Source: a virus. Taken from it: DNA of 37,912 bases. Of this stretch, positions 17,487 through 37,912 are shown in pieces (position 1 is the first letter of the stretch; each line of letters begins with the position of its first letter). The stretch spans positions 1 to 37,912 of the IMG/VR virus record IMGVR_UViG_3300048833_000763; one strand, given 5' to 3'. The notes beneath the pieces are model-generated. The model searched no databases, had not been told where the DNA came from, and worked only from the letters and a program-made list of their open reading frames with translations. A program made the position numbers and the translations under genes.

Positions 17487-18641
17487 TCAGTTGGAAACGG
17501 CCATCACGGCCTCAACGAGGCTGGATTCGGGGTGCTCGGCTTGATAGGCACGCGCACGGTTGAGCAATTCCAGACGAGCCGGATCGACATAGGTTCCAGC
17601 CGGCGCGGAAAACGACGCAGGGGCGGGCAACGGTTCGACGCGGGACTTCTCGCGGTAGTCGACGCGCACGGGCAGATCGGCCAGCAGCGCGCTGAGCGCT
17701 TCGGCCGGCGATTGCAACAGCGGCTCGCCACCATCGGGCGAGGCGAAGGCGACAGCGGGCTGCTCGTGCAGCACCACCAAAAGCTCGGTGACGACAGCTG
17801 CCTCACGCGGCAACAGGCGGCCGGCATCGACCAGGCCACTGGCGAAGGCCGCGGTGGCCGTCCGGTGTGCGGCGTGTTCTTGCGCGATGCGCGCTTGCTC
17901 GCGCTGCAGCTGCTCGGCCTCGCGTGCAGCGGTGGCCTGCTCACGTGCCGACAACTCGGCCTCGCGCTGGGCTACAGCATGCTCGCGGGCGGCGATCGCA
18001 GAGTCGATCTGCGGATCGGCCGGGGCCGAGAACGCCGGCCCGGCCATCACGGTTTCGCCGTCAGCCTGCGACGCCTCGACAAGCGAGTCGATCTGCCAGG
18101 TGGGCAACACCTTGTCGGCTTCTTCCAGGCCCTCGCGGCCGACCATCCAGTCACGCACGCGGCGCAGCATTTCGGCAACGCTGCGGAACGCCCAGCGGCG
18201 ATCGCTGGCGAACTCGGCAACGTCATCACCGGCCGCGAACTGCACATCGCGCAGACCCATGACGGCCGGCGCCTGGGCGCCGAGGAACCCGACGTGGTTG
18301 AGGTAGTACTGGCCCGGCGTGGGGTTGTTCGGTGCATCCGGCAGCAGGAATGCGGCGCTGCGCTTCTTGTAGCGCCCGGCATTGACTGCGGCGGCAAACG
18401 TGGGCTCCAGCTGCTGCACGTCGGCGAGCAGGAGATCGCCCTCGGCGCGCAGGCCCCGCACCCAGCCGTAGGCCGGCGCGTTGAGCTTGGGGTGACCGAT
18501 GACAATCGGCGCCTCATGCCGGGCCGGGTCATAGCCCTTGGCCGTCGCGGCGACGTGCTCAGCCGTGATGTTGAACTCACGGCCATGAAGGTCGACATGC
18601 CGGCCGGCGCGGAAAATCTCGGTGGTGTGATTGGCATCCAT
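17487..18641 (-). CDS. Mu gpI-like capsid protease/scaffold, 384 aa
   Basis: I start it at ATG 18639-18641 (MDANHTTEIF). The longer open frame upstream includes the promoter-like element and is not protein-like. The first 150 residues (RAGRHVDLHGREFNITAEHV, GYDPARHEAPIVIGHPK, FLLPDAPNNPTPGQYYLNHVGFLG) are a classic Mu I-type head maturation protease. Residues about 210-290 form a long charged coiled coil with repeated AREHAVAQREAELSAREQ-type heptads, the scaffold part. In Mu, scaffold Z is made from an in-frame internal start; here a Met at residue 199 (18045-18047) is a candidate but lacks a clear Shine-Dalgarno. It is preceded by a late-promoter-like repeat. Confidence 0.9.
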   Translation of the reverse strand: MDANHTTEIFRAGRHVDLHGREFNITAEHVAATAKGYDPARHEAPIVIGHPKLNAPAYGWVRGLRAEGDLLLADVQQLEPTFAAAVNAGRYKKRSAAFLLPDAPNNPTPGQYYLNHVGFLGAQAPAVMGLRDVQFAAGDDVAEFASDRRWAFRSVAEMLRRVRDWMVGREGLEEADKVLPTWQIDSLVEASQADGETVMAGPAFSAPADPQIDSAIAAREHAVAQREAELSAREQATAAREAEQLQREQARIAQEHAAHRTATAAFASGLVDAGRLLPREAAVVTELLVVLHEQPAVAFASPDGGEPLLQSPAEALSALLADLPVRVDYREKSRVEPLPAPASFSAPAGTYVDPARLELLNRARAYQAEHPESSLVEAVMAVSN

Positions 18642-18667
18642 GGGGCCATCATCTGGATGCGCCCCGC

Positions 18668-18694
18668 GCGGATCATCTGTCCGCCGTTCCACTC
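18668..18694 (-). promoter_or_regulatory. Putative late promoter/activator element upstream of protease I
   Basis: On the minus strand this reads AGTGGAAC-N6-CAGATGA followed by TCCGC. It is 25/27 identical to 26875-26901 upstream of the lysis operon. It contains the dyad GCGGA-N7-TCCGC. Mu has C-dependent late promoters at exactly these two places (Plys and PI). The element ends 27 bases before the ATG, so if the transcript starts just downstream the leader is short. A second CAGATGAT lies 23 bases further on. Confidence 0.65.
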
Positions 18695-19554: not shown

Positions 19555-20222
19555 GGCGTACCCCGCGGCATCGGCAGCGTCGCACGCGGCGCCTCAGCAG
19601 CCAGCCCCACGTGATACGCCCACTCCGGCGGCGGATCACCCGCACTCGGCCCCGGCGCCCGATCGGGGTTCTTGCCATCCGCACGCAGGCGCTGCGCGGA
19701 AATGCCGATCACCGTGCAGCGGCAGCCCCAGCCGTTGGGTGGGTAGTGCGTCGACCACCACGGGTCATCCTTCGCGATGACCAGGCCGTCCCACGCTCGG
19801 TGCTCCTCGCGCGGGTTGGCCACGGTGTTGTGCTTGTACTTGAGGTACTGGAACGTCTTCAGCGTCTCCCATCGCCCCGCCTGGTACGCCACGCGCAGGT
19901 TCGTGTGGTAGATGACCGACGTACGCCAGGCGACACCGCGCGCCGTGGTGCTGCCCGTCCATCCGGTCCAGCCGTTGCGCGCCACGATCTCTGCAAAACG
20001 TTTGCGGAAATCCTCCAGCGTCTCGCCCTGGCTGATCGCCGCATCCACCGCCTCGCGCAGATCACGCAGCAGCGCATCGCGCGTCGCACCGGCCACCACG
20101 AACGCCTGCGCATGCTGCCCCTGCCACAGATCATCCCAGCGCCAGGTGGGCCAGTTGAGCTTGCGGCGAAAGTAGCTCTCGGCCTCCGGCATCGAACCAA
20201 AGCGGCCGCGGATCTCAGGCAT
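19551..20222 (-). CDS. Mu F-like head morphogenesis protein (gp30), 223 aa
   Basis: The start ATG (20220-20222) overlaps the DUF4031 gene by eight bases. The pattern PEAESYFRRKLNWPTWRWDD, QAFVVAGATRDALLRDLREAVD, WRTSVIYHTNLRVAYQAGR, REEHRAWDGLVI, and NGWGCRCTV is the SPP1 gp7/Mu F minor head signature, with the H..WDG and GWGCRC motifs. It is shorter than Mu gpF (about 420 aa), so the Mu C-terminal region is absent or separate. It should sit near the portal inside the capsid. Neighbours: portal upstream, gpG downstream. Confidence 0.9.
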   Translation of the reverse strand: MPEIRGRFGSMPEAESYFRRKLNWPTWRWDDLWQGQHAQAFVVAGATRDALLRDLREAVDAAISQGETLEDFRKRFAEIVARNGWTGWTGSTTARGVAWRTSVIYHTNLRVAYQAGRWETLKTFQYLKYKHNTVANPREEHRAWDGLVIAKDDPWWSTHYPPNGWGCRCTVIGISAQRLRADGKNPDRAPGPSAGDPPPEWAYHVGLAAEAPRATLPMPRGTP

Positions 20223-26844: not shown

Positions 26845-26874
26845 GTACGGAGCCAGTCTCTAGTCAGGGCAGTG

Positions 26875-26901
26875 GCGGATCATCTGTCCGCGGTTCCATT
26901 C
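26875..26901 (-). promoter_or_regulatory. Putative late promoter/activator element upstream of lysis operon
   Basis: The minus strand reads GAATGGAAC-CGCGGA-CAGATGA-TCCGC, with the dyad GCGGA-N7-TCCGC. It is 25/27 identical to the element upstream of protease I (18668-18694) and resembles the plus-strand copy at 26976-27000. It lies 58 bases before the mini-ORF and about 89 before the endolysin ATG, the position of Mu Plys. There is no sigma-70 -35/-10 pair at normal spacing, as expected for an activator-dependent promoter. Confidence 0.7.
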
Positions 26902-26951
26902 GGGCGTTGTTGGACTCAAGTTGTCGCGCCTGTCCAACGGCGCCAGCGTGT

Positions 26952-26970
26952 GCTAGGCGCGAATCCTAGC
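26952..26970. repeat. Dyad GCTAGG-N7-CCTAGC between divergent late elements
   Basis: A perfect six-bp inverted repeat with a seven-base spacer sits between the two oppositely oriented late elements in the 265-base gap between endolysin and the 60-aa gene. It may be an operator for both. Nothing else is seen in the gap apart from the elements listed. Confidence 0.45.
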
Positions 26971-26975
26971 GCGGA

Positions 26976-27000
26976 AATGGAACGCGCGGCAGATGACGCG
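26976..27000 (+). promoter_or_regulatory. Plus-strand copy of the late element
   Basis: The plus strand reads AATGGAAC-GCGCGG-CAGATGA-CGCG, preserving the eight-base block, the six-base spacer and the seven-base block of the other two copies. It faces right, ending 51 bases before the ATG of the 60-aa gene at 27052. It therefore makes a divergent pair with the lysis element 75 bp away. Confidence 0.6.
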
Positions 27001-27051
27001 TGCACGGCGCGCGGTCAGGCTAATCGCCCGACAAACTCGAACGGAATTGCA

Positions 27052-27234
27052 ATGAAACAAGTCTCGATGGACGCACTCAGCGCGCCGCTGGAAGAAGCGG
27101 TCAAGGCCGCAGGCTGCGACCCGCGGAAGGCATTCAAGGCTGAACTACGCAAGGAGCCCCTGACCGACGAGGTTTGGCTGGTGCTCCTTTATGAACTACT
27201 CAAGCAGAAGGCGTCACAGACTGCAGTTGCCTGA
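27052..27234 (+). CDS. Small protein convergent to the lysogeny operon, 60 aa
   Basis: The ATG at 27052-27054 has a weak ACGGAA upstream. The product, MKQVSMDALSAPLEEAVKAAG followed by CDPRKAFKAELRKEPLTDEVW and LVLLYELLKQK, looks like a compact helical protein. No family is recognised. It lies downstream of the plus-strand late element, and its last 35 bases overlap the 3' end of the lysogeny operon's last gene on the other strand. Its expression is likely late, and its transcript would run antisense to the lysogeny operon. It could be an antirepressor or just a small late protein; neither is shown. Confidence 0.6.
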   Translation: MKQVSMDALSAPLEEAVKAAGCDPRKAFKAELRKEPLTDEVWLVLLYELLKQKASQTAVA

Positions 27235-28257: not shown

Positions 28258-28764
28258 CTACTTCCCCCTCTGCCTGATGGTTACCGGTGCGTGGTTGACG
28301 ATATCGCCCGCGCCGGCCTGACCGACTGGGCCGTGAAAGACCTGTGTTGCCGGCTCTTCGCGCTCGCTGGGTCCCTGCTGATCTGCATCTACTTCGGGCT
28401 TGCGTCGGCGAACGTGGACCGATGAGCCGGAAGCAATGGCTTTGTGAGAAAGCCTCCGAAGGGCGTCGCATGCCGCCGCCTTTCCCTCGGGCGGCAGGTT
28501 CATGAAGTCGTCGGCGATCGCCGTAAGCATGTCTCGATCTTCGATGGCCATCCCTCGCACAAAGATGCTTCGGACACCGACGAGGACGTAGCCAATGTCC
28601 ACGCCCGCATCTGACGCGGCGAGCAGGTAGGCGCCGCCGGGAACCTGCCGATCAGTCTCGAAATAGAACTGCGCGGTCTTGGACGCGCCACAGGCATCCC
28701 GGAAGGCTGCCTGGGTCATTCCCAGTCGTTCACGCTCCTCTTTTAACCGGCCCCCGAGCGACAT
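28258..28764 (-). CDS. XRE-family phage repressor, 168 aa
   Basis: The ATG at 28762-28764 has AGAGGTG upstream; a longer upstream frame would cross the operator and is rejected. The N-terminal helix-turn-helix is RLKEERERLGMTQAAFRDAC with GASKTAQFYFETDRQVPGGA following, a common XRE form. Residues about 55-90 continue helical, with VGVRSIFVRGMAIEDRDML. There is no S24/LexA-type peptidase and no Ser-Lys pair, so induction is probably not by RecA-stimulated self-cleavage. The C-terminus carries the F-H-x-x-V-G-Q motif also present in the next gene. It should repress the early operon through the operators at 28784-28830. Confidence 0.88.
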   Translation of the reverse strand: MSLGGRLKEERERLGMTQAAFRDACGASKTAQFYFETDRQVPGGAYLLAASDAGVDIGYVLVGVRSIFVRGMAIEDRDMLTAIADDFMNLPPEGKAAACDALRRLSHKAIASGSSVHVRRRKPEVDADQQGPSEREEPATQVFHGPVGQAGAGDIVNHAPVTIRQRGK

Positions 28765-28775
28765 ACGCGCACCTC

Positions 28776-33156: not shown

Positions 33157-34280
33157 GCCTCAAAGCTGCCCTGACCGAGGCGCGCATCCCGATCGCCGAG
33201 CTGGCGCGCGCCACCCGCGCATCGCGGACGGCGCTGTCCTTGTTGATCAACCGCGACGTCTGGCCGGCGAACAACCAGGCCGAACTGCGCAATCAGATTA
33301 AGTCGTTCTTCCGCGAACGCGGCCTGCCGCTGGCTGGCGTGTTCGCAAATGAAAAGCCCCGAAGCGTTCGAGCGCCTCGGGGCCGAGTTGTCAACCCCAC
33401 CACTGAGGAGACAGACGCCATGATAACCCACTGCATCAAACTCACGCCTAAAGCGCGTGCGCATTTCAATCTGACCGCTGATCCATTCGGCGAATGCCAG
33501 GAACCGGCCGACGTTTATATGTCGCCCGATATTCGCTACGTGCGCGAAACCCTGTGGAGCACCGCGCGTCACGGTGGTTTTGTGGCCATCGTCGGTGAAT
33601 CCGGCGCCGGCAAAACCACGATCCGAGAGGAACTGATCGAGCGCCTGCGCCGCGATGAACAGCCGGTGCACGTGATTCAGCCGTATGTGCTGGCGATGGA
33701 GGAAACCGACAACACCGGCAAGACGCTGCGCGCGGTGCACATCGCGGAGGCCGTCATGCGGACCATCGCGCCGCTGCAATCCATTCGCAGCAGTCCGGAA
33801 GCACGGTTTGACCAGGTGCACCAGGCGCTTTGCAACAGTTTCCGTGCTGGCATGCGCCACGTCATTTTGATTGAGGAAGCCCACTGCCTGCCGGTGGCCA
33901 CGTTGAAGCACCTGAAGCGGTTTCTGGAATTGAAAGACGGCATGAAGCGCCTGCTGGGGATCGTGCTACTAGCCCAGCCGGAACTGCTGAAGAAACTCAG
34001 CACCGCCAACGCCAGTTTGCGCGAGGTGACCCAGCGCATCGAGATCGTGCAACTGGCGCCGCTGGCTCAGGCTGGCGATTACCTCAAGCACCGATTCGCC
34101 CGCGCGGGAACCAGCCTGGACGCCGTGATTGAACCAGCCGCCGTCGACGCCCTGCGCGCGACGCTGGGCGACGTTTATCCGCAGGCCCTGCACAACCTCC
34201 TCGCGCGCTCGATGAACACCGCCGCGACGGTTGGGGCGCCGCTGGTTACGAAAGAGATGGTGCGGGAGGGCGGGCGATGA
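33153..34280 (+). CDS. AAA+ transposition ATPase with N-terminal HTH (TnpB/MuB-like), 375 aa
   Basis: The ATG overlaps the transposase stop (ATGA). Residues about 1-58 are an XRE/MuB-like helix-turn-helix (ELARATRASRTALSLLINRD). Residues 90-375 are an ExeA/TniB-type ATPase: Walker A GESGAGKTT at 148-156, Walker B VILIEEAH at 237-244, then LLAQPELLKKL and QRIEIVQLAPL. It should bind target DNA and stimulate the transposase. The linker contains a GC hairpin (33356-33383) and an internal GAGGAG plus ATG at 33421, so a shorter ATPase-only product may be made. Confidence 0.93.
   Translation: MSLKAALTEARIPIAELARATRASRTALSLLINRDVWPANNQAELRNQIKSFFRERGLPLAGVFANEKPRSVRAPRGRVVNPTTEETDAMITHCIKLTPKARAHFNLTADPFGECQEPADVYMSPDIRYVRETLWSTARHGGFVAIVGESGAGKTTIREELIERLRRDEQPVHVIQPYVLAMEETDNTGKTLRAVHIAEAVMRTIAPLQSIRSSPEARFDQVHQALCNSFRAGMRHVILIEEAHCLPVATLKHLKRFLELKDGMKRLLGIVLLAQPELLKKLSTANASLREVTQRIEIVQLAPLAQAGDYLKHRFARAGTSLDAVIEPAAVDALRATLGDVYPQALHNLLARSMNTAATVGAPLVTKEMVREGGR
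33356..33383 (+). other. Hairpin before internal start in the ATPase gene
   Basis: The stem is GCCCCGA/TCGGGGC, then one A-C mismatch, GCG/CGC, one T-G wobble and a TCGA loop. It is preceded by AAAA. It lies in the linker between the HTH and ATPase domains. Thirty-seven bases later, ATG 33421 has GAGGAG nine bases upstream. The hairpin could slow ribosomes or protect an internally started message. Confidence 0.5.
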
Positions 34281-36669: not shown

Positions 36670-37352
36670 CCCGCGCGGAAGCCCTCAAAAAGGTCAAGAA
36701 GCTCCTGCGCCTGGGCAAGTCGAACAACGTCCACGAGGCGGCCGCAGCAATGCGCCAGGCGCAGGCGCTGATGCAGCAGCACGCGATCGACGAACGGGAC
36801 GTTAAGGAACACGATCCTGACGAAGTGGGCGGCGAACGCACCGCGCCTGCACGCGGCAAGGTGCCCCCGGTCTACGCGGTTGCACTCCAGCGCGCCGTGG
36901 CTATGGCGTTCGGTTGCGAGGCCCTCATCGATCAGATTGGCTGGTCGCAACATGCCCACGAGTTCATCGGCCCGCGCAGTCGCGCGCAGATCTGCACCTA
37001 CGCGTACGCCGTGCTATTGCGCCAACTGGAGCGCGACAAGCGGGCGCACATCGCGCGCGTCCGTGTCCGGAAGAACCGCAACGCTCGCGGCGACGCGTTC
37101 GGCGTCGGCTGGGTGATTGGCGTGGAATCGGTGCTGCAGATCTGGAACCCATCGGTTGGCGAAAGAGCGCAAATCGAGGATTTCCGGACTAGGAAGTATC
37201 CGAATCTCCGGAGTTTCACGGCCAATGCACGGGAGTCGAAAGCCGTGTCATTTGGCGACCACGTGCGCGGCGTCGAGAACGGCAGGAAAGCCTCGCTGCT
37301 GCGCGGTGTCGGCGGGGACAAGAGCCAGCAACGGCAGCTGGAGGCGTCATGA
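36666..37352 (+). CDS. DUF2786 protein, 228 aa
   Basis: The ATG at 36666-36668 overlaps the previous stop. The N-terminal signature MTRAEALKKVKKLLRLGKSN, NVHEAAAAMRQAQALMQQH is DUF2786 (residues 1-42). The following domain has a conserved-looking VYAVALQRAVAMAFGCEALI, and the C-terminus is Arg/Lys-rich, suggesting nucleic-acid contact. Function of the family is unknown, but it is frequent in Mu-like early operons before gp16/GemA. Confidence 0.88.
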   Translation: MTRAEALKKVKKLLRLGKSNNVHEAAAAMRQAQALMQQHAIDERDVKEHDPDEVGGERTAPARGKVPPVYAVALQRAVAMAFGCEALIDQIGWSQHAHEFIGPRSRAQICTYAYAVLLRQLERDKRAHIARVRVRKNRNARGDAFGVGWVIGVESVLQIWNPSVGERAQIEDFRTRKYPNLRSFTANARESKAVSFGDHVRGVENGRKASLLRGVGGDKSQQRQLEAS

Positions 37353-37912
37353 GGCGCGTCTCCTCCGCTGATCAGATCCGCGCCCGCAAGCTGGCGGCGA
37401 TCCACATCGCCGCCGGTCAGCTCAAGCTCGACGACGACACCTATCGCTCAATTCTGGAGCGCGTGACGGGCAAACGTAGTGCGGCGGACCTCGAAACGCG
37501 CGAGGCCAGCGCCGTGCTCGACGAGCTGCGCCGCCTCGGCGCGGCGAACCCTCGCGCCGCCGGCAAACCGCACAACGCCGACAGACTGTCGGGCGAAATC
37601 GCCAAGATCGAGGCGCAACTGAGCGATATGCGGCTGCCGTGGTCCTATGCCGACGCGATCGGCAAGCGGATGTTCGGCATTGAGCGCGTGGCGTGGCTGC
37701 GCAAGCAGGCGCAGCTGGTGGCCGTGCTTGCGGCGCTGCATGTCGAGCAGGGAAAGCGCTCCATGCTGGCGGACATTCGCGCCCAATGCGCGGCGCTCGA
37801 TATCTCGATCGACGACCTCGAGCGCGAGCTGGGGCTGGCCGTGGGATGGCAGCGCAAGCAATCGGCACTCAAGGTTGTAACCGAGCACCTCAAAGGACGG
37901 GTGACGCAATGA
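37349..37912 (+). CDS. gemA: GemA / Mu gp16-like (DUF1018) regulatory protein, 187 aa
   Basis: The ATG overlaps the DUF2786 stop and the TGA is the last three bases of the window. The sequence RARKLAAIHIAAGQLKLDDD, TYRSILERVTGKRSAADLE, with WSYADAIGKRMFGIERVAWL in the centre, is the GemA/DUF1018 pattern. GemA is an early Mu-type protein reported to affect host gene expression and DNA topology. In Mu and relatives the late activator Mor follows shortly after, so the missing activator would be expected beyond the right edge. Confidence 0.93.
   Translation: MRRVSSADQIRARKLAAIHIAAGQLKLDDDTYRSILERVTGKRSAADLETREASAVLDELRRLGAANPRAAGKPHNADRLSGEIAKIEAQLSDMRLPWSYADAIGKRMFGIERVAWLRKQAQLVAVLAALHVEQGKRSMLADIRAQCAALDISIDDLERELGLAVGWQRKQSALKVVTEHLKGRVTQ

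Follow-up and report, generated by a model that had tools for sequence, protein, structure and literature searches.

We analysed a viral contig of 37,912 bases (IMG/VR record IMGVR_UViG_3300048833_000763), called the window below, whose gene order is that of the transposable, Mu-like phages. Early genes run rightward from about 29 kb and comprise a Rha-like regulator, the transposase, the transposition ATPase and, as the last gene of the contig, gemA (37349-37912, plus strand), at whose stop codon the contig ends. The late genes are oriented leftward, beginning with the phage lysozyme (26244-26786, minus strand; phrog_7 endolysin), which is the first lysis gene, and including gene I, the head maturation protease (17487-18641, minus strand; phrog_976). 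Repressor-like genes occupy the space between the early and the late blocks, and the repressor gene c (28258-28770) adjoins the lysis promoter.

A scan of the window for RRTGGAAC-N6-CAGATGA revealed exactly three matches, all with zero mismatches: 26880-26900 and 18673-18693 in the minus strand, and 26976-26996 in the plus strand, in agreement with the original prediction that three sites have this pattern in common. Its statement that the first two copies are identical at 25 of 27 positions was likewise confirmed, and this 27-mer pair is the best repeat of the region upstream of gene I, scoring 22 where the null segments average 13 (p 0.008, which is the floor of a test in which the observed score was above that of every random segment of the window tried). 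The copy at 26880-26900, AATGGAACCGCGGACAGATGA, is the predicted activator site of the Plys-like lysis promoter, about 90 bp upstream of the lysozyme start, and has counterparts in L004, L005, L090, Lsp-JY19, and phiSHP3. The copy at 18673-18693, AGTGGAACGGCGGACAGATGA, is the predicted site of the PI-like head-operon promoter. With the lysozyme and the phrog_976 protease directly downstream, the placement of the two copies ahead of the lysis operon and gene I proved right.

At both sites, a -10-like hexamer lies at +32 to +37 from the dyad centre of the element: GAGACT in the lysis promoter (26855-26860, minus strand), with a predicted transcript start near 26848, and GATGAT in the head promoter (18648-18653, minus strand), which ends 6 nt upstream of the gene I ATG. 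The sequence GA(G/C)ACT is found at the same distance from the dyad in Lsp-JY19, L004, L005, L090, and phiSHP3. The proposal that the sites lack a normal sigma-70 pair is correct for the -35, but the -10-like hexamers GAGACT, GATGAT and, at the third copy, CAGGCT are located at the expected distance. The repeat GCGGA-N7-TCCGC, also proposed earlier, is present in the first two copies but missing from the third, and relatives keep it partly at most (CGG...CCG); for these reasons, we discarded it as the operator or conserved dyad. Taken alone, the two sites of the window are poor inverted repeats with a GC-rich six-base spacer. The dyad of the clearest relatives is an inverted repeat with a GC-rich centre (TAATCGG-N8-CCGATTA, CGGAA-N4-TTCCG), of which the window copies show only a degenerate form.

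The third, divergent copy (AATGGAACGCGCGGCAGATGA) is on the other strand, 80 bp from Plys, and is a weak candidate for a divergent late promoter. Compared with either of the first two copies, it is identical at 16 of 21 positions, and matches of that grade are expected about 0.2 times per 38 kb, hence per window, as counted in 2.0 Mb of related phage DNA. No counterpart was found in the relatives L004, L005, Lsp-JY19, phiSHP3, and Bhz63 (no convincing one in the case of L004, L005, and Lsp-JY19). On these grounds we lean mildly towards a chance match without promoter function; against chance, both conserved blocks are exact, a possible -10, CAGGCT (27016-27021, plus strand), has the spacing of the other copies, and the proximity to Plys puts the site ahead of a small ORF (27052-27234, plus strand) of 60 amino acids and no family match. 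A functional third copy is accordingly quite possible, if short of probable. The earlier interpretation as late-activator sites stands for the lysis and gene I copies; the third is not significant by itself. The window has a second 16/21 match, at 33467-33487 (minus strand), antisense within the transposition ATPase gene and probably due to chance.

We then looked for conservation of the element upstream of lys and I in relatives. In L004 and L005, the two closest contigs, whose protease is about 55% identical to that of the window, the elements are CGGAACC(A/G)GGGCCGAT(G/T)A and CGGAACC(G/C)GGGCCGATTA; they lie ahead of both the lysozyme and gene I, at distances to the start codons (about 33 and 90-100 bases) that match those of the window. 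The position is kept, and the sequence of the element is different but matched within each phage. Among isolated phages the closest is Lsp-JY19 of Leptolyngbya, where CGGAACCAGGGCCGATGATC and CGGAACACGGACAGATTACC occupy the two sites; the Stenotrophomonas phages phiSHP3 and vB_SmaS_Bhz63 have TTGGAACGCGTGCAAATGACC and TGTGAACCCGTGCAAATGACC. Among wider Mu-like relatives, each genome has its own dyad in two to four copies, which precede gene I and the lysis genes and, in many cases, also a tail gene. Examples are four copies of TGACCGGAACCGAGTTCCGGTCA in the Rhizobium phage RR1-B, three of a TTTTCGG-N6-CGAAAAG-like sequence in B3, and likewise three of CTCTTTAAACCCGATTAAAAG in L034, of TTTGAAGC-CTTCAAATAGAA in L038 and of the dyad in L053. 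Inverted half-sites are clear in L005, L137 (Lsp-JY19), L072, and RR1-B. Compared with random segments of the same genome, the sequence upstream of gene I was repeated at p<=0.05 in 17 of 38 phages, where about two were expected; a second copy of the dyad was not seen in the examined stretch of L013, L043, L050, L058, L061, L065, and L070, among others. As a separate observation, terminator-like GC palindromes of the CCCACGCGCGCGCGTGGG type are located 10-30 bp upstream of the Plys dyad in L090, L104, L108, L137, and L091-L110.

When the sites were aligned on the dyad, a -10-like hexamer NANNNT appeared about 31 bases downstream of its centre, and 22 of the 24 sites not belonging to gene I have NANNNT at +30 to +35. 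Gene-I promoters aligned on the hexamer gave inverted-repeat peaks at -32.5 (z 6.1) and -30.5 (z 5.7) from the first base of the -10, that is, -44.5 and -42.5 in the usual -10 numbering; a second, non-overlapping set of phages peaked again at -32.5 (z 4.5), the z values being obtained by permuting the right arms among sequences. In Mu, Mor binds a 16-bp element in which a GC-rich spacer of six bases separates two inverted repeats of 5 bp; the element has its centre at -43.5 and takes the place of the -35 (PMC4390567, PMC4287176). The distance between hexamer and dyad is constant where the start codon lies elsewhere (L018, L038, L041), which ties the hexamer to the promoter and not to the gene. 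A hexamer directly after the dyad (GATGAT, TTAA, ATTAC), which would give a normal leader, was considered as the -10 and rejected because the hexamer 31 nt from the centre stays put while the start codon shifts.

Of 42 related records, 29 contain a Mor-family gene (PF08765), which usually closes the early operon, not far from gemA. There is no Mor or C gene in the window, because the contig ends after gemA. This fits the earlier suggestion that the activator is encoded outside the window, since Mor of the relatives follows gemA directly or within about 1.3 kb. A Mor gene past gemA is the layout of L127, B3, phiSHP3, and Bhz63. Mor directly after gemA, which holds in B3, phiSHP3, Bhz63, and KS10, was not retained as a universal rule, as Mor lies about 1.3 kb further on in the L004 contig. 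The gene beside Mor in Lsp-JY19 (PP438411) is not gemA, and the first CDS of this phage (L137:1-393), annotated as "hypothetical", is a Mor-family activator (PF08765, E 1e-17). We infer that the phage of the window has a Mor gene beyond gemA, with a PF08765 domain and a helix-turn-helix (HTH) like ELARKYGMTERGIRKL.

The relationship between Mor and the sites was followed in nine contigs of one phage group, in which the lysis and head promoters carry either GAAACCAGTTTCAAAGAC (type A) or TGCGGACCGCGGTCCCAA(G/T)AC (type B). Wherever both promoters are present they agree in type, and the DNA flanking the sites hardly differs between the types. The identity of Mor A to Mor B is only 49%; Mor A occurs with site A in seven contigs and Mor B with site B in two, with no mixed case (Fisher 1/36). 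The genes compared were those for terminase, portal, transposition, protease, lysozyme, and repressor; for the first five, contigs of different type are as alike as contigs of one type. The start region of the protease has diverged in G042, one of the seven A contigs, with Mor and the sites identical. Over 29 phages, the identity of the Mor HTH correlates with the similarity of the sites (r 0.64), and still does so with protease similarity removed (0.52, p 5e-4). Such co-variation points to the Mor/C protein as the factor that would set site specificity in the relatives. In the type-A contigs L098, L101, L095, and L105, an apparent decayed earlier head promoter and gene start, CCGTCCCAAxACGTGAGACGG...GGGCATGAGCCA, is found about 90-30 bp upstream of the PI dyad, and it looks like a promoter fossil from a change of specificity.

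The element could alternatively be an operator by which the phage repressor (c) silences the late promoters in the prophage, as the repressor gene adjoins the lysis promoter and such operators also differ between phages. We consider this very unlikely given that the type of repressor is independent of the type of site, the repressor of L101 (site A) being 95% identical to those of the site-B contigs L103, L106, and L107, and that a -10 at this spacing without a -35 suits an activator. A reader of host origin, either a regulator or an alternative sigma factor, was suggested by the GGAAC of the element, which is the -35 hallmark of ECF sigma factors and is common in the genus of the window and in several other groups. 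In this case the spacing is a misfit for both the sigma-54 and the ECF readings of TGGAAC...: no ECF-type -10 was found 16-17 nt past GGAAC, and the -10 is fixed at +31 from the dyad centre. GGAAC itself is missing from many related promoters. Moreover, the wholly different GAAACCAGTTTC and GGACCGCGGTCC are found in otherwise equally similar phages of similar hosts, and specificity follows a phage gene, such that a host factor seems to us a very improbable reader of the element.

The kept position with phage-specific sequence, the Mor-like spacing to the -10 and the change together with Mor/C all favor the original prediction of a late-activator site, and we think it very probable that a late activator of the Mor/C family, encoded by the phage itself, binds at the copies at 26880-26900 and 18673-18693. 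On the repeats, their position, spacing and co-variation with Mor, as read in the sequences, we base a model in which binding, activation, the transcript starts and the window's own Mor are predictions. Towards the close of the early phase, the last part of the early operon would supply a Mor-family protein. A dimer of this protein would occupy the region around -43 in both the lysis and the head promoter, substitute for a -35, and recruit or activate the host RNA polymerase at the weak -10s GAGACT (lysis) and GATGAT (head). With one activator at both promoters, the lysis and head operons would switch on together. The activator and its sites would evolve as a matched pair, which would account for an element unlike that of Mu.

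The activator family and the promoter class are already known from Mu. As in the Mor-activated Pm promoter of Mu, a dyad with a GC-rich centre near -43.5, clear in the relatives and degenerate in the window, replaces the -35 and is followed by a weak -10 (PMC4390567, PMC4287176), and the relatives encode a PF08765 activator at the end of the early operon. Unlike Pm, the dyad sequence is phage-specific and unrelated to that of Mu, and unlike Mor of Mu, the activator would itself switch on both operons, for lysis and for head, given that the annotated layouts of B3, phiSHP3, and KS10 include no separate C gene. The C-activated Plys and PI of Mu precede the same two genes, are used co-ordinately and have no proper -35 (PMC4461284), whereas their site sequence is different. 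Of the annotated phages, phiSHP3, vB_SmaS_Bhz63, and Lsp-JY19 come closest: a matching element is present at Plys and PI alike, and their early operon has a Mor gene at its far end. They differ from the window in carrying their own variants of the element and no third copy. Mor and C of Mu are textbook activators with one sequence each. Dozens of cognate activator/site pairs can now be read from genomes, near-isogenic swaps included, so that a change of specificity without loss of co-ordinated control becomes directly testable. In the literature searched, in which most subscription papers were outside coverage, we found no report of phage-specific dyads, of their joint change with Mor or of a leaderless head-operon start, nor any of leaderless transcripts or late dyads of Mu-like phages.

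The position of the -10 relative to gene I bears on how the head operon is translated. Of 60 dereplicated phages, 36 have exactly 6-7 bases between the end of the hexamer and the gene I start codon, and in a second set, retrieved with another query, the same gap was present in 27 of 34; the base rate of such a gap is 7% for all ATGs and 6% for the first ATGs of long ORFs. Gene I of the window reads GATGAT-GGCCCC-ATG, with a gap of 6 nt, and no Shine-Dalgarno sequence is found within 17 nt upstream of 18641. With the -10 at 6 nt from the ATG, the mRNA is expected to start on the start codon itself, 18641 being the predicted +1; it is rather likely, judging from this arrangement, that the head-operon mRNA is leaderless at gene I. 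A similar arrangement of -10 and start codon is found at several lysis and tail promoters (L044, L053, L054, L072). Late mRNAs of Mu, in contrast, have leaders with ribosome-binding sites, which counts against this reading. The rival is a leadered gene I, either with an internal or upstream start or transcribed from further upstream, the hexamer gap then reflecting another constraint such as the inverted repeat described below. Read-through from the lysis promoter could also provide mRNA, an SD-like purine-rich stretch is present in 4 of the 36 predicted leaderless cases, and the GenBank protease starts of B3 and KS10 are placed further upstream (PMC2628397). We hold a leadered gene I to be unlikely, given that the gap is confined to two values, 6 and 7 nt, with the hexamer in at most 8% of phages at any of the remaining gaps between 0 and 19, that hexamer and dyad stay equally far apart in L018, L038, and L041, whose start codons lie elsewhere, and that most of the predicted leaderless cases lack a Shine-Dalgarno sequence. 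In B3 (L140:19857) and KS10 (L144:18120), the deposited start precedes the ATG predicted here to be leaderless (position 19887 in B3) and coincides with the activator dyad or lies above it; the absence of a ribosome-binding site has probably misled the annotation. If true, a leaderless start of this essential head gene would explain the misplaced annotated starts and would make these phages a natural model in which to study leaderless translation during late infection.

A second inverted repeat surrounds the -10 of the head promoter of the window (18642-18665, minus strand), with the arms GGGGC (18661-18665) and GCCCC (18642-18646). Gene-I promoters have such a repeat at -18 to -1 from the start codon, with the -10 hexamer in the loop; the flanking arms are complementary and differ in sequence from phage to phage and among the promoters of a single phage, for instance GCCGCC-GATCAT-GGCGGC, GTTGCCA-CAAT-GGCAAC, and GTGCGC...GCGCAC. 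In three sets, the arms paired more than expected from permutation, at the same centre each time (z 4.7, 3.0, and 2.4), and this was the second-highest centre at the sites not belonging to gene I; it is possible that the pairing is an effect of composition. A +1 on the ATG would leave the right arm untranscribed, which suggests that the repeat plays its role at the DNA level, in promoter melting. We consider it an even question whether, in the broad Mu-like group, head transcription would begin on the protease start codon from an activator-dependent promoter whose -10 lies in the loop of an inverted repeat with conserved pairing, such that melting would be coupled to leaderless translation and the activator and its sites would be exchanged as a matched specificity module.

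Finally, in the immunity region, adjacent small proteins (window 28258-28471 and the small ORFs next to it; L005:1076-1465) have in common a short motif like (H/F)GPVGQVAGGDI at one end, as exemplified by VFHGPVGQAGAGDIVN, MQHFHDVVGQVAGGDIIN, and MSMQNFFGPVGQVAGRDIT.
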